Below, piece by piece: positions 23,034-63,421 of a DNA stretch of 64,000 nucleotides (its first letter is position 1; each line of letters starts with the position of its first letter). The notes beneath the pieces are model-generated. The model did not search any database. It was not told the DNA's origin and saw nothing but the letters and a program-made list of their open reading frames with translations. Source of the DNA: Arabidopsis thaliana (Eukaryota > Streptophyta > Magnoliopsida > Brassicales > Brassicaceae). The stretch lies in contig NC_003074.8 in assembly GCF_000001735.4 (NCBI RefSeq), positions 19,041,261 to 19,105,260 on the forward strand, given 5' to 3'. Position numbers and translations under genes: made by a program.

Positions 23034-25330
23034 TCACAAAGATACAAAAGAAATGAAGCAAATGATGAAAAGTGAAGAAGCCGCAGCCAGAGGGTTCAAA
23101 CGACTGGAAAGGTTGATGGTTCTTGGAGACGACGTTGGTGCCATCGATGGCGGTTTTGCTAAAGCGGTAGGTCCTGTGAAACCGTTAGTATCATTACCTG
23201 AAAATGTCCACAAGAAATTAGTTATTAACATGAGTAATTTTTGTTTTTGGAGAAGAGTTTAGTTCAAGTAGGACGTACAATTAGATTTTTTCCATCCTAA
23301 GATCCTTCTCTCACGATCGTGGACGATTCTGTAGTTGGTCATGAAATTTTCTAACATAAAGAAAAATTTTCATCTGATTTAGGAATTGGTTAAAATGTAC
23401 AAGAAGAAATTGTGTTGATTGTGGGAAAAAAAGAACAAAAACGAACGTCCGATGATGCTGAAGTCAGCATTAACTTGCTTTAAGACAGCCAAACAATAGA
23501 CTTGAAAACTACCCTGTTAATGCAATGGAGATTAATATATTTAGATATAGTAAATATGATAAAATGATGATATGAGAAGATATGTGTATACATCGGAAGT
23601 GTCGAAGACAAGTATGGGGCTGAAAACATCATAAGCAGCTCCTCCTTTCATCTCAAAGCTAACTGAAGGAAGCTTATCTTCATCTGAACTGCAAACAGCT
23701 ACACACACATGCATCAATAATTTTTTAACTACAAACATTTATCATATGTATATCTAAAGATAAGCCTACGAACGTTGATGTGATAATGTAGCAAAACTCA
23801 AAAGGGCTATCCACACTTTTCGAAAGTCGTCTGTCTGGTACAGAGAGATGAAACTGCATAACACAACACACAGACGGGTCGGTTTGTAATGTTACATGCC
23901 TCGAGGTTTTAGGTAATGGAATGAACTAAATGCAAAAGTACGTAAAGCGCACGTTTGTTGTTAGAGCAGTGTAGTAAGGCTCGATCAGCCATGTAACCGC
24001 GGTTCCAGAGTCAAATGTCGCGGTGAATTCTGTATCCACCGTAACTTTTCCTACCTTGAATTTGGTGATGCTCACATCGTAAAACATCCTGTGTTTAGAT
24101 CATGCATGTTCGTTACATATGAATATACTTATTGGGACAAATAAAAGAAAAAGGTGTAAGGAGGGTTTACGGTGAGATGGTGCCACTCAATGGAGTCTCA
24201 AGCTGGTCTGAGCTACCTTTGTCTCCGAAACTGATTGTTCCTTTCCCATTAGGACCAAAACACATTGAGAAAGAGTCTGACGCGACACCGGCTTTAACCA
24301 ACATGTTTGGAACCGCTATGTCGGCTATTGCAAGTCCCATTATACCATTTACAGCCACTTCTTTGAACAACCCTAGTTGGGACTCACTACATCTGCCACC
24401 ATTTAAGTACTTTTCATATATGAAGTAAGAAGAGACCTAAAATACTATATGAAAGACATATTAATCAGTGCATTGCCAATTTTAGAAAGAATTACAAACC
24501 CGAATGTGATCCGAGCATCTCTAGCTTCTCCTTCTTCAGTGCTCATGTGGATCACATCCTCCACCAACACACCTGTACTTTTGCTTCCCGGAGAGAGATA
24601 TCGGATTCTGTAAGGACAATCGCTGACCGGAGAAATGCATCTGTTTCTTAATGCACAGAGTGTGCTATTGCACGTAACCTTTGAGCTTGATTTTGATTTG
24701 CTGGGGTTGTAGATGTTGAGTTTTATTCTCTACGTATACATGTGTGTCTTAAAAGATGATCAAGTTTTGATGTCATAACAAATAACATTCCAAGATTGTA
24801 TAAAATTACCTCGCCTTGGTCAGTCTCCATACTCCGTACACAAGTGGAATTGCAATTGCAAGGTAACCAAAACAAATCACTGCCTGTGTCTAATGCCACC
24901 AAGAACCATTGAGCCGGTGTCCCTATCGTCACATTCGCATAATGTAGACTGATCATTAAGAATAAAGAAACATATAATCAAAGGTCTATATAGTACTTAC
25001 TAAATGGAAATACAGAGGAGGTGCCAAATTTTTATCATACAAACTGATTTCTTCGGTGGAGTTGCCTTGAGCGAAAGAAATAGTTGTCTGATTGTTGTTG
25101 TTGGAGGTTAGCTGGCGACCTCGATCACGATGAACCAAGGCCTTGTAGTAGTCTAGGCTGCCCATTTCAGGCAAACCATGGCCACCTAGAACGGTTTTGA
25201 CTTGCTCTGAGAATCTATGGTGAATTTCAAAGGAAAGTGATCCTGAAACAGAAGAAGCCAATCCCAAACTCATAGCACAGAGGAATCCAAACTGAAACAT
25301 CCATCTCAACTTCCAATTACTCCAAATCAT
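23034..25330 (-). CDS. Diverged GPI-anchored A1 aspartyl protease (array member 4)
   Basis: Ten exons: 25330-25041, 24948-24810, 24729-24500, 24392-24171, 24088-23953, 23853-23774, 23688-23592, 23513-23447, 23350-23279, 23197-23034; 498 residues. Exon order and phases match members 1-3, so it descends from the same gene, but the sequence is far more diverged. First motif DTGS (Asp about 117), second motif DSG (Asp about 320, TFDSGTAVTWL) where the others have DTG; DSG is allowed in this family. The tail after GWKKSN is short, Ser/Pro-rich and ends in a hydrophobic GPI-type signal (ASSLFIICFISFVSL). Intron 7 here begins GTATAC. Matches At3g51360. Confidence 0.9.
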
Positions 25331-26403
25331 TCTTTGATCTTCCTATCTTTCTCTATGAATCTAAAGTTAAAGAAGAAAAACAAAGAATAGGTGTGTTGAT
25401 TCTTGCTAGTTGAGTTTCCTTTTACTACACGAAACTTGTTTGTTTTGTTTTGTGTGTGGAATATGAGGGAGAAGGTCAACGTTTTGTCTGGTGCTTGGTC
25501 TTTGTCAACGGATTTTTAAAGATCGTTATTAAAGGAATATGTTGCCAACGAAATTATCGTATTTAATTCAATTTTTGAACATCAACTCTCATATTTAATT
25601 ATTCATAGAAACCTTATCATAATATTTCTTGTTCTTTTATCTTTATAAACAAAACCCCACAAGTATATGATCTAACCTCGAATCATTGTGTTTCTGTGGC
25701 TGTTTATATATAAATTTGGTGGAAATGTGACTAGAGACGTGGAGGGATGTTTGTTATCGGTTTGGTGCAGCCCGGTGTACATTAGGCAATTGGTAACAAT
25801 ATTGTTTAAATCTGTACGGAAAACAATGGGGTGAATTTGTCATAATATAGAGATAAGAGAGATCGAATTGCAAATATGATACAATTATTTGAAAATAGAA
25901 ACGTTGACTATTGATAAGTTTTTGTACACGTGTCATGTATATATGGGACCCAGATCAAATTCTTCTTCTTAATCCAGCCAGCTTTGAATTTTGATATTTG
26001 ATGAATCTCAATTAATTGTATGAGAAAAAAAAAGTTTCTCTCTTTAAATTAGTAGATCTTAGACTGAATCATAAACTTTTGATCTCTAATCTCAACAGAT
26101 ATGAAAATAATCACTTGATTCCATCATTTGCTTTTCTCTTAACTTTTTTTTTTCCGGAAAATAAGTTTTAATTTTAAACTATAGTAACAAAAATGATAGA
26201 AAGTACGTAGAACTCTGGAACTTACACATACTACGAACAACTACATTAGATAAAAGGAAACACAAGTCATGTACAAGATGTGAAGATTAGACGAATATCT
26301 TGGAGAAAAACTTTTAAAAATAAAAAATGTTTGAAAAGCAATTACTATGCATTCATATATATGTATAGACGAGGTACGTAGCTAGTCTAAGAAGATGTGA
26401 TGA
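25331..26403. other. AT-rich intergenic, protease 4 promoter side
   Basis: No gene, repeat or conserved array block seen. Includes the protease 4 promoter and the 3' flank of the small gene that follows. Confidence 0.5.
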
Positions 26404-27215
26404 TCAAGCCTTCGTTCTTGAGAAATTGGGGAGAAGATGGAGGCAGTGAATGAAATGAAGGTCGTGTACAAGAGGATTTCCGGTTCTCCTTGGTGGAGAC
26501 CCTACGTACCACATTGACTCTATGGTTCCACCTTCTATCGGCTGCACCTACGACCACGATGAACATTTATATTTAAATAACACCCAAGATCGATTCATGC
26601 ATGCAAGTTTGAAAAAATATTTTAAGAAATTAATTAAAACAAGTTTATGTTTTAGTATTCTCACAAAAAAGTTAAGTTTTGATATATCATTTTACATTTT
26701 TACCAATTTTCATATATAAATTAGATAATTTCATAGAAAATAGATGAAAAGGACTATTGTTTTGAAAAGGAAGAAATCTACAAATTAAATGTCTAATAGA
26801 AATGATGAAAGAAGCAAGAATGACGACGACCTTATCGATAATGCTGAGAACGTCGCTTCTTCCCTCCTTACTTTGTTGGCTGATTAAGGCACACACATGT
26901 ATGATGAATGAATCATCATGATTAATTTCAAGAAACAAGAAGAAAATGATATATAGTTTCGATTGTTATAAAAAAAACTTTTGTGTTTACGTTTACAAAC
27001 AAAAAGAATCATGTTCTTAACTTTTTGGAAAGCACAAACACAAATTACACCAAATGTATAAAAAACACAAACAAACAATCTAGCTAGACCATGTAATGTT
27101 ACCAGGTGGAGGAGTGTAAGGAACACGAGAGAGGTTTGATGAAATCAGGAAGAGAATGACACACACGGCGTGGCTTAGGGCAAAGAGGCTGCTTCACTTC
27201 CGAATGATGTTGCAT
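26404..27215 (-). CDS. Small three-exon gene, 99-residue unknown protein
   Basis: Exons 27215-27103, 26879-26831 and 26541-26404 join in frame (113+49+138 = 300 nt). Donors are CTG|GTAACA and AAG|GTCGTC, acceptors ATCAG and TGCAG. The product starts MQHHSEVKQPLCPKPRRV, has a middle SKEGRSDVLSIIDK, and ends with PPRRTGNPLVHDLHFIH and SRTKA. It is basic, with no signal peptide or membrane segment. On the minus strand a TATATATAG box at about 27330-27321 lies some 110 nt upstream of the ATG, fitting a promoter. I do not recognise the family. Evidence for coding: three unrelated pieces connect through good splice sites with no stop, and the residue mix looks constrained. Alternative: chance, which I consider unlikely. 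Confidence 0.7.
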
Positions 27216-28793
27216 CTTTTCTATATTCCCTTAATCCGATCCAAAAGAACAATGTAGTTATTTAAATGTTGATCCTTTGTTAACTGGAGTCTGAAATGTA
27301 GTAATTAATTAGTTTGAAATCTATATATACAATATGTATCGTTCGTTTAAGAAGAAACTGAAGGATTGTGTAGTGATGAGTGAAGCCAAAGTTTGGTTAT
27401 TCTCAGACAAAACATTACTTAGAAAGACGTGATCAATTTACATGTGGTGTCTTTATTTCGTGGTGAAGAGTGAAAGTAGGGTTGGTGTTCTTGACTACTC
27501 CCCCTCGTTTTTTGCCCTTGGTTATAAGGCCGAGTAGACATATCTAAAGGCCCAATTTGTGATAAGTAGAGAGAAGGCCCGTTTTGTTTTCAAGAGCCAG
27601 AGAGCAAATGGGAGGAAAGTGAGGAAAAGGGAAGGCACATGGGAGAGAAGTGAAGGGGAAAAGAAGAGCAGGTCAGGTGCAGGTGGAGTTGGATGTGGAA
27701 GTTGCACACGTATGTCTGTCTTCTTTCGCCAGCTAACCTTTCTCTCTAATCTCATTTCATCACGTGTCCCTCTCCCTTATCACTCACACATTTTATCTAT
27801 ATCTTTTTTTTTTTGGTTTTTTAACTATCAATCTTTTTCTTCTACATATATCTACCAATACAAACACTTGTCTATATCTGCAACACTTTTTTTTTACCTC
27901 TCCAAGTTATAAGGAATCGTCGAATTCGGAGTTGTGGGTTTAATTGATAACAGAATTAGTTATTTGGTATAAATTGTAAGTTATTACAAAGATAAAGGAC
28001 CGTTTGGGTAAATAAAAAGAGGAAAGAAAAGTCAATTAGAGGAGAAAAGAAGGGTTAGGTTTAGAAAATCTGATCCAGTAAGTAATTTGAGAGATTGGAT
28101 TGTCTGGTTAGAAGCAGTGGAGCCCTTTCCTTTCTCTCTTCTCTCTTTTCTCCTTTGCCTTCTTCCTCTCCGAGAGAAGGTCGACGCTACTTCTTCTTCT
28201 TCCTTCTTTCTTCTGGATCTGATTCGGATCCATCACTCTCTCTTTCTCTACATCAATTTGTTTTCTCAGATCTTCATCTTTTTTTCGTATACCTGTATTT
28301 GTCGACCTTTTCTCTCAATCACTAAACCCTCAAATCCTTTTTTTGGATTATAAGATTGCTTCTCTGATTGTAATTGCTTTGATGTGTATCAGTTGACTTG
28401 TGAAAAGTCTGCGAGTGACTTCTTCCTGTTTACACATCAGCTACTCCAGAATCTCTCAGGTACTAATTTTCTCAGAGTTTGAAAAAGTTTGGATTTTGAT
28501 CTGATCCTTGTTGAATAAACTATTCCCTCTTGCTTATCTGATCCATTAACCAATTGGGTTTGCAGTTTTTTTAGTTTAAAGTTGGGTTTTTGATATCATT
28601 TTTGCTCAGCCAAGTCGAGAGTTTTCAGATTCTATTAAGCTTATAAAATTGTTGTTTTGTTCAGATCCTTACTTTTAATTCTGTTTTGAATTGCAGATTC
28701 TTAAAAGCTTAAATCTTTTTTCGACTTTGATTGTTTCTGTGCATCGCTTTGACGGATGTGGAGGAAAAAAGGGGTGTCTTGATGAAATGAGGG
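27216..28793. promoter_or_regulatory. Divergent region: small-gene promoter and PP2C promoter/leader
   Basis: Holds the small gene's TATA region and, on the plus strand, a pyrimidine-rich PP2C leader. A 5' UTR intron for the PP2C is likely from about 28460 (CTCAG|GTACTAAT) to 28696 (GAATTGCAG). ORFs at 27522-27912 and 28087-28353 are low-complexity and not supported. Confidence 0.5.
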
Positions 28794-30715
28794 ATGTTAT
28801 CAACGTTAATGAAACTCTTGAGTGCTTGTCTGTGGCCGTCTTCTTCCTCGGGCAAGTCCTCTGATTCAACTGGAAAACAAGATGGATTGCTTTGGTACAA
28901 AGACTTTGGTCAGCACCTCGTTGGTGAATTCTCCATGGCTGTTGTTCAAGCCAACAACTTGCTTGAGGATCAGAGCCAAGTTGAGTCTGGGCCTTTGAGT
29001 ACTCTTGACTCTGGTCCTTATGGAACTTTTATTGGAATCTATGATGGCCATGGCGGGCCTGAGACGTCGCGATTTGTTAATGATCACCTTTTTCAGCATC
29101 TAAAGAGTGAGGAAACTGAATGATATATGCATACCAGGTTACAAACCAACCGTGCGGAAACTAAAATCTTGTTTGAATTTTCAGGATTTGCTGCAGAGCA
29201 GGCCTCTATGTCGGTGGATGTAATTAAAAAGGCGTATGAGGCGACAGAAGAAGGTTTTTTAGGGGTTGTGACAAAGCAGTGGCCAACTAAGCCACAGATT
29301 GCAGCGGTTGGGTCTTGCTGCTTGGTGGGTGTTATATGCGGAGGGATGCTTTACATAGCTAATGTTGGGGATTCCCGTGCAGTTCTTGGAAGGGCTATGA
29401 AGGCGACAGGTGAGGTTATTGCCCTTCAGCTCTCTGCTGAACATAATGTGAGTATAGAGTCTGTTAGACAGGAGATGCACTCCTTGCACCCAGATGACTC
29501 GCATATTGTCATGTTAAAGCACAATGTGTGGCGTGTTAAGGGCCTTATTCAGGTATGTTTCTCAATCTGAATGATATTTAATTAGATTTTATGGTTAAAT
29601 GACGGCTTTAATTCAGGTACATGAGTATCTTAGTGAATCACTCGTTGAATTGATATATAGTTGTCTTGTAAGGCAAAACCGGAGCTAATTTGAATTAAAT
29701 GGCCTTGGAACTTCTTGCTGGTTTCATGAAGCCAAAATGCTAAACTTCGAATCAAAAAAGCAGTGTTTTTTTCTTACTTTTAAGATGTCAAGATCAACCA
29801 AGAAATTTGTCAATGTTTTATCTGTTTGGCGATAAGGTCTCTGCATTAAATTAGACTTTACATTCAAAAGGCTAGATTTGTCGTAACCTTGACTTTGACA
29901 TTGCCAATACCAAACCCACCAACCCGAGAAAGTCAGAGCTCTGGTTGAAGTTGAAATAGGTATTATCTAAAAGCCAGTGTATGTATGCCCCTCCTACACA
30001 AAGATACAGATATTATATAATTGACTCAACAGTTGAATCCATATTTTATCCCTATCACTGCATGTAGACAGTAGACACTAGGTGCAAACGCTAGATATGT
30101 CAAGATAATCCTGGAGATTGAAATTGAAAAGGCTAAGATATGTTTGTTCCTTTGCAGATATCTAGATCCATAGGCGACGTGTATCTTAAAAAGGCAGAGT
30201 TCAACAAGGAACCATTGTACACAAAGTATAGAATCCGTGAACCGTTCAAAAGACCTATCTTGAGTGGGGAACCAACGATAACGGAGCATGAGATCCAACC
30301 ACAAGATAAGTTTCTAATATTCGCTTCTGATGGACTATGGGAACAGATGAGCAACCAAGAAGCTGTTGACATCGTTCAGAACCACCCACGAAACGTGCGT
30401 TAGACCCATTTCTTCCTTTTTTTTTCACTTTCAGTAAAAACCAATTACAAAACCAAAGATTGACTCTATCCTTTGTTGTGGAAATGAATGCAGGGGATTG
30501 CACGGAGACTGGTGAAGATGGCACTGCAAGAGGCGGCAAAGAAACGAGAGATGAGATATTCTGATCTAAAGAAGATAGAGAGAGGTGTGAGGAGACATTT
30601 CCACGATGACATAACTGTGGTCATAATCTTCCTTGATACCAATCAGGTGAGCTCTGTGAAAGGACCCCCACTCTCTATCCGAGGCGGTGGTATGACATTC
30701 CCCAAGAAAATCTAA
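28794..30715 (+). CDS. Clade D protein phosphatase 2C (PP2C.D6-like)
   Basis: Four coding exons: 28794-29106, 29185-29552, 30158-30394, 30494-30715; 379 residues. PP2C metal-binding motifs are present: [12 protein letters not shown] (near residue 84), [37 protein letters not shown] and [12 protein letters not shown]. Exon 1 encodes [15 protein letters not shown], a short hydrophobic start typical of clade D. Clade D phosphatases dephosphorylate plasma-membrane H+-ATPases and are inhibited by SAUR proteins, limiting cell expansion (established for the clade, inferred here). Intron 2 is 605 bp, the longest in the gene. Corresponds to At3g51370. Confidence 0.93.
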
Positions 30716-57984: not shown

Positions 57985-59995
57985 TTCCAGATTCCGATCA
58001 AAAGCTTTCTTTTTTTGTCAGAGTCATCTCTTTTAAATTATAAAAATAGCTTCTTTCTTCTTCTTCCTCCTTATTTTACTCACCAATCAGCTCTCTGGAT
58101 GCCACGTGTGCTTCCAATCTCCATATTTTTTTTTTAGTTTGAATATAAAAGAGAATTAAATCTTTTATTAGTTTCCCATTAGCGAAAGATGAAGATTGTG
58201 TCTGGGTTTTACTCTCAAGCAAACCCATTTCTTTTTGGTGGTGTCGTCGGAGTCTTTGTATCATTTTACTTAGAGAACCCTAATGGTACATTTTTTCATT
58301 TCTGCTCCGATTTTTGTTGGTTTGTTTGTTGCTATCTACTTTACAGAAAATGACAACATTTTTGTGAATTTCGGTCTCTATAGTGCTACAATTAGCCATT
58401 AAACAATTGCAAAAGCTCGCATTTGTAGGGGTATTAGATAGCAAAAAAAGTGTTGACTTGAGATGTTTGTTTATGCGCACTAACTCGATTGTGTAAAAGC
58501 TGAGTTTTTTTTCAAGTATCTATCATCTGAGTGGTCTTTTTGGTATTTGAAGGAGCTTCTGATTTTGATGTGGAAGTAATCATATGAGATTGATAGTAAG
58601 TTGGGGAGATATGAATTGATGGTTCCACTGAGACACAAGGATATGAGTGAGTGAGAGTTGAATCTGTGAACGAGTTATGGACTGTATGCTTATGACACTG
58701 TATGGCTGCTTGCTTACGCCATTGATGATTTTGAGAGCATCTTACAGGTTGACAGAATCGGCTTAACCGCTAGGATAAAGTTTACTAGAGACAGGAACCT
58801 TGTAAATCCAGCTTTTGATTTGCTTAATGTCATTGGCACTGGTTACAGGACCATTGGTTACTGGTATAATAATTTAGGCTTGTCTGTGACGCCGACTGAC
58901 GAGCTGGAGAACACATCCTTTTCGGGACAGAAGCTTCATAGTGTTGTCTGGCCATGACAGAATTTGAACAATGGAAGGCATTTGAGGAGTGGAGTTCCAA
59001 ATCGTTCCGAAGAGGTTGTCTCAGTCAAAAGCAACGGGATGATCTCTGGCTTCTGTGTTGATGTTTTCATTGCTGCTCTCAACTTATTACCTTATGCAGT
59101 CCCGTTTGAGCTTTTAGCTTTTGGGAGTGGTCATGACAATCCAAGCAACTCTGAGCTAGTGCGCTTGATAAGGACTGGGGTGAGTACATAAGCACTCTTT
59201 TAGAACTTGTTTTGATGATCCCTCTGTTAGCATAACTCAATAATAAGTATACCTCTTTGTTGATCAAAACTCTGTTTGTAAAATAGTAAATCATTTCGAT
59301 TAATGAATATTTAAAGTTTAATATTTTATTAGTTTCTCTTCTTCTTTTTGTCACTTTCATCTTCCTCAGTCCTCACGCTTGTACATATTATACAGTAGAC
59401 AAAAGCTTGAACGAAATATGAAGGTTGTGTCTGGCTTTTTGATCAACCTTTGAATCAATTTCCAAAACCCTTAAGGTATACACTTTTTTTTATCTCGGTC
59501 TCTATGGAAAAGCTTTGATTTTGTGAATCTGGGTTTCTTTCTTTCTACATTTAGCCAATTATCACTTTTTAGGGTATAGAAAGCCAAAAAAGGTGTTCAC
59601 TTGAGAGTTTCTTTTTGCGCACTAACTTGATTGCGTGAAAGCTGAGATTTTTCATCTGAGTGGTATGTTTAGTATTTGAAGGAGCTTCTCACTGTGATGT
59701 GGAAGTAATCATATGAGATTAGAAGTGGGTTGGGGGAAATATGAAGGATTTGAGTGAGTGAGAGTTGAATCTGTGAGTACCATTACATAAAGAAGATCTC
59801 CACTTTACACCTACTATAATGGGCACTCAATTACTTCCTCCACCATTGCCTCATGCTTAGTGAGAGAAAGTGACAGGTCAAGCATCTTTCTTCCCTCAAA
59901 CATTCTATATCTGCTCGTAATGGTGGCTAAATTCAGTGACTTGACCTTCCTCTCTTTTTTACTTTGTGAAACAGGAATCTCCTGAAATTGAGAAG
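57985..59995. other. PP2C / GLR3.6 divergent region with tandem duplication
   Basis: The PP2C promoter, a decayed GLR copy (58189-59230) and the functional GLR3.6 upstream region (59418-59995). Leader blocks of the two GLR copies align (e.g. GGAGCTTCT, TGTGGAAGTAATCATATGAG at 58569 and 59698). Confidence 0.7.
58189..59230 (+). pseudogene. Truncated tandem duplicate of GLR3.6
   Basis: Upstream part 58189-58670 matches 59418-59775. It then jumps straight into exon 2 sequence: 58675-59179 matches 61202-61853 and continues into the intron (GTGAGTACATAAGCACTCTT) to about 59230. So about 1.4 kb (exon 1, intron 1 and the first half of exon 2) is missing, plus roughly 115 bp (functional 61258-61373) and smaller gaps, one of which removes the segment after GTTGTCTGGCCA and brings in a TGA. 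Exons 3-6 are absent. Identity in the matching exon part is high (over 90% by eye), so the duplication is fairly recent. A 75-codon frame at 58964-59191 is a remnant, not a gene. Confidence 0.88.

Positions 59996-63421
<3,426 letters not shown>

Follow-up and report, generated by a model that had tools for sequence, protein, structure and literature searches.

The question raised by this locus was whether the interval between an array of protease-like ORFs and a PP2C gene of Arabidopsis holds a small spliced protein-coding gene on its minus strand, as a preliminary description had proposed. The window, which is the whole stretch of DNA analysed (64 kb, C3:19041261-19105260), belongs to a genome of 119.66 Mb in seven contigs. 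According to the ORF list, minus-strand protease-like ORFs reach 25330 and plus-strand PP2C ORFs begin at 28794, in agreement with the earlier statement that the candidate lies alone between them. In Pfam searches, TAXi_N was matched by one protease ORF of the window and PF00481 by the spliced PP2C model (model ends not checked), and the protease-like ORF nearest to the candidate (24986-25330) gave no Pfam match when searched singly. This ORF lies ~1.1 kb from the candidate on the same strand, with the candidate on its upstream side.

The three minus-strand pieces first described (27215-27103, 26879-26831 and 26541-26404) were found to join in frame as claimed (113 + 49 + 138 = 300 nt), giving 99 codons and a stop with an ATG start and no internal stops, and the introns of that version were 223 and 289 nt long and GT-AG at both. 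Coding exon 1 (27103..27215, minus strand, as are all parts of the model; 113 nt; GC 0.50; coding score +5.4 bits) carries the ATG at 27215, ends in the donor CTG/GTAACA and passes two bases of a codon to the next exon. Intron 1 (26880..27102, 223 nt, GT-AG) is T-rich on the minus strand (GC 0.27, T 0.44, A 0.28). Coding exon 2 (26831..26879, 49 nt, GC 0.45, coding score +2.9 bits) ends in the weak donor AAG/GTCGTC and is followed by intron 2 (26548..26830; GC 0.24, T 0.43, A 0.32), which is 283 nt long with acceptor 26547 and 289 nt long with acceptor 26541. Coding exon 3 (26404..26547, GC 0.48) encodes the SPPRRTGNPLVHDLHF stretch and ends in the stop TGA; its preferred start is 26547 and its alternative start 26541, in frame and 6 nt away. 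The frame is open across canonical introns, as would be expected of a missed small spliced Arabidopsis gene. The TATA box reported upstream of the start, TATATATAG, was located on the minus strand at 27329-27321 (~106 nt upstream of the ATG), and with the usual TATA spacing transcription would start near 27297. The frame is opened by the first ATG after the TATA box, the next ATG farther upstream being at 27415, and the start codon has an A at -3.

The region 26250-27450 was subjected, on both strands, to an exact search for the best model of one to four exons, in which codons, donors and acceptors were scored. Codon scores were obtained from 2,773 training codons from the window together with a general background table (correlation 0.89), the splice weights were likewise background values, and the stretches with which the coding and background models are compared had also served to train them. 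Among three-exon models of both strands, the top score (15.97) went to one with exons 1 and 2 of the preliminary description and an exon 3 that begins at 26547. A three-exon minus-strand gene remains the best-supported reading of the locus. With acceptor 26547 the total score was 15.97, versus 14.68 with 26541, and the coding sequence gains Val-Gln to give 101 aa. A four-exon variant scored slightly above the three-exon model (16.34); it uses the strong donor 26510 within exon 3, so that the SPPRRTGNPLVHDLHF stretch is lost. The best plus-strand model in the region scored 11.2. As a positive control, the window's ROP GTPase was rebuilt from six exons by the same program (introns in control runs being allowed to 700 nt instead of 450), and all 197 residues of the rebuilt protein aligned to RACB end to end, gap-free, with 402 bits.

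The splice sites had been called good, which holds for some of them: acceptor 2 comprises the region's two best-scoring acceptor sites and donor 1 is third in rank, but acceptor 1 ranks 8th of 47 and donor 2 (score -1.4) only 15th of 69 GT sites. The two strongest donor-like sites of 26250-27450 fall inside proposed exons, at 26872 (exon 2, AAA/GTAAGG) and 26510 (exon 3, GTG/GTACGT), and these minus-strand sites could yield alternative splicing.

Base composition was compared between the parts of the model and the rest of the window. The exon values of 0.45-0.50 GC are comparable to those of 10 ROP and PP2C exons of the window (0.40-0.53), while the introns lie at 0.27 and 0.24 and the flanks at 0.27-0.30. 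A two-state segmentation blind to reading frame returned GC islands at 27213-27083, corresponding to exon 1, and at 26558-26368, corresponding to exon 3, with island edges 2-36 nt from the ends of these exons; exon 2 went uncalled, but its GC rise shows in a 50-nt profile. GC as high over the same length was found at 0.95% of intergenic positions for exon 1, 1.5% for exon 3 and 8.3% for exon 2. The excess of T over A was +0.22 in intron 1 and +0.15 in intron 2, levels reached by 6.1% and 9.9% of intergenic stretches, respectively. A skew of at least +0.11 was present in 8 of 11 introns of the program's ROP, PP2C and SSL-like models, of which only the 5 ROP introns are verified against a known protein; the other 3, all from PP2C, were without T excess. 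The composition is coding-like and bounded by splice sites, with exon 2 uncalled and the significance of the structure as a whole moderate.

The coding score amounted to 12-13 bits in total, spread over the three exons, each of which was positive in the frame used. Per codon the candidate scored 0.12. Overlapping stretches taken from the training ORFs (n = 57) averaged 0.16 (sd 0.06), and overlapping intergenic stretches from which stops had been removed (n = 307) averaged -0.16 (sd 0.12), with 0.12 reached by 4 of the latter. In exon 2, one reverse-strand frame outscored the frame used (0.38 vs 0.18), and in exon 3 the frame used was hardly above another frame of the same strand (0.11 vs 0.09). 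These values bear on the reading that a spliced transcript is made from the locus and is non-coding, or incidentally translated, or an alternative first part of the downstream same-strand protease gene. Such a transcript would run on the strand of the protease array towards the ORF at 24986-25330, ~1.1 kb downstream, and promoter and splice features alone do not show coding; the positive score over all three exons, the opening of the frame at the first ATG after the TATA box, its closure by the stop at 26404 and the fall in GC after that stop speak against this reading, which we regard as quite unlikely.

Another reading is that of a chance assembly, in which patches of high GC within AT-rich intergenic DNA have compatible open frames and GT/AG sites by coincidence and there is no gene. 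When models of up to three exons were sought on the minus strand, a score of at least 15.97 was reached in 0/500 dinucleotide shuffles of the whole region, in 11/500 local shuffles with 120-nt tiles, in 21/500 with 60-nt tiles, and in 20/500 shuffles within each exon, intron and flank. When a length of at least 300 nt, a threshold picked after the result was known, was required in addition, the numbers were 0, 1, 5 and 1 of 500 for whole-region, 120-nt, 60-nt and within-segment shuffles, respectively. With both strands and up to four exons, for which the observed score was 16.34, 1/500 whole-region, 28/500 120-nt and 34/500 60-nt shuffles scored as well. Among sliding windows over the 64 kb, 212 of 420 scored at least as high as the candidate, as expected where genes lie, and so did 4 of 20 windows taken as intergenic from the ORF list; three of these 4 overlap a GLR fragment described below and one lies upstream of PP2C. 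In this last area (27250-28750, plus strand) a short model of 171 nt scored 19.0 and a four-exon model 20.0, both above the candidate. The plus-strand model is probably spurious or lies within the PP2C leader, and it counsels caution on splice-aware prediction.

The structure score is therefore suggestive and not proof, because local shuffles reach it and the model upstream of PP2C outscores it. Taken jointly, GC pattern and gene structure stand out as unusual, but once the GC pattern is taken as given, the structure by itself reaches significance only at the level of a few percent, and the significance is lower still when the 64 kb surveyed are considered. A stronger sign than the structure score is the match of the GC islands to exon boundaries. 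A chance origin would be in keeping with the local-shuffle counts, with the spurious-looking model upstream of PP2C and with the weakness of donor 2, but it sits poorly with the near absence of comparable scores among whole-region shuffles, with the rarity in intergenic DNA of the GC level of exons 1 and 3, with the proximity of the island edges to the splice sites and with introns that are T-rich like many plant introns, and we consider it unlikely. The candidate is probably an ordinary small protein-coding gene.

For the predicted protein, the preliminary description had given 99 residues and a basic character. The 99-residue join is exact and the product is mildly basic, but a protein of 101 residues, made through acceptor 26547, is more likely. 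The 101-residue protein has a mass of 11.4 kDa and a pI of 8.97, with 12 Lys and Arg versus 8 Asp and Glu, and contains 12 Ser, 10 Pro, 10 Leu, 8 His and 5 Cys. No signal-peptide-like or membrane-spanning stretch was found by hydropathy (highest 19-residue value 0.63, starting at residue 79), and the profile thus lacks the N-terminal hydrophobic signal peptide by which secreted small peptides are recognized.

We infer that the candidate gene is transcribed, spliced and translated. Minus-strand transcription would proceed from the TATA promoter in the gap shared with the PP2C gene, the two genes standing head-to-head, and two splicing events would yield the 101-residue protein, or 99 residues if the second of the two adjacent acceptors were used. 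Given its mildly basic character and its abundance of Ser, Pro, Leu and His, the most likely mode of action of the protein would be that of a small soluble adaptor, cytosolic or nuclear, which might bind a partner by way of short motifs, above all the exon 3 stretch around SPPRRTGNPLVHDLHF. If the gene is real, this soluble, motif-driven role is a tentative guess from composition. The neighbouring PP2C is presumably one of the PP2C.D phosphatases. Inhibition of PP2C.D phosphatases by SAUR growth proteins has been reported (PMC6016943).

Aubourg et al. 2007 (PMC2174955) described small Arabidopsis genes that TAIR annotation had overlooked and that EuGene models and CATMA arrays brought to light. 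Hybridization was seen for 465 of the 649 candidate probes lying between TAIR genes, and RT-PCR supported 88% of these 465; the novel genes averaged 137 aa in size and 0.67 in intron number (PMC2174955). Like these, the candidate is a short coding sequence between annotated genes that came from splice-aware prediction; unlike them, with their hybridization evidence, it is predicted from sequence, and it has two introns where their mean is 0.67 (PMC2174955). It fits, by this comparison, a documented kind, the missed small Arabidopsis genes. The small-ORF peptides of ARA-PEPs likewise are small proteins outside long annotated ORFs, but the SIPs have a median length of 35 aa, whereas the candidate would have 99-101 aa in three exons, and the words 'introns' and 'spliced' are absent from the main text of that source (PMC5240266). 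If transcribed and conserved, the candidate would be one more small Arabidopsis gene, beside a PP2C gene; the general view would be unchanged by it alone, because 465 novel, mostly small genes came from one study (PMC2174955).

The candidate gene may already be annotated. Locus names beginning At3g5136 were taken to be the right number range for it, and a literature text search for At3g51366 or for words with that beginning found no mention; among the matches listed for locus names, only At3g51370 appeared. The motif letters of the candidate protein were likewise not mentioned in the literature text search. Literature matches to the locus coordinates were medical papers, in which the numbers are evidently reference numbers, and were rejected.

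Relatives of the candidate were sought in its own genome and in several collections. The whole-genome DNA search matched only the candidate itself, and the whole-genome protein searches matched only its own exons, a weak third match covering exon 2. Four degenerate motif patterns returned the candidate locus and nine matches judged to be chance. As possible paralogues, one of these matches (L018, presumably antisense to an ERF gene) was rejected with WYIGSPP and a stop just beyond, another (L007/L023) with PRSTGNP and then a stop, and seven others (five + two) on the matched letters only. The own-genome searches score best candidates only, so that a diverged copy could be missed; on their results the candidate gene is apparently single-copy. 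Around the two most closely related PP2C genes (C5, C4), the flanking sequence retrieved gave nothing above noise (best E ~2.6). The family had been described as unknown, and this holds for Pfam-A, where 0 families were found at E <= 10 with both protein versions (the HMMER filters dropping most matches above ~0.1), and for PDB, where the candidate protein had no match. Rfam gave no match and viral contigs no match to the peptide patterns. In bacterial and archaeal genomes, 28 stretches fitted one of six short peptide patterns and none was a relative. A repeat search returned one weak direct pair and one weak inverted pair.

The only plant genome searched was the candidate's own, and the lack of matches therefore says nothing on conservation among plants, including that of the motif near the C-terminus, which the preliminary description took to look conserved. 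It is our impression, unverified, that uncharacterized eudicot proteins with similar motifs exist. The gene could be the only Arabidopsis representative of a plant family not yet described, with SPPRRTGNPLVHDLHF as a conserved exon 3 motif and with an N-terminal basic Pro/Cys patch, and could have escaped annotation owing to exons that are individually too short for calling; we hold this to be doubtful.

The same searches bear on the reading of the locus as a pseudogene fragment, the decayed remnant of a duplicated gene. Remnant formation does occur here, since the window holds a GLR remnant at 58675-59228, but searches of its own genome with DNA, protein and motif patterns (best candidates only scored) and of the fetched PP2C flanks brought up no second copy of the candidate, and its frame and splice sites are intact, which makes a decayed origin highly improbable. 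We prefer the intact small gene to this reading.

The remnant belongs to a gene whose ORF sequences we take to be glutamate-receptor-like (GLR). On the plus strand, the segment 58731-59228 shares 85.5% identity with 61372-61902 of the downstream GLR gene, and the segment 58675-58731 matches 61202-61258 with 91% identity; the fragment 58675-59228 is probably a partial duplicate. A spliced model around it gave no Pfam match. The fragment is flanked by same-orientation copies at 58429-58669 and 59572-59776 (~205-241 nt, 75% identity over 242 columns), and these two copies may mark a tandem duplication.
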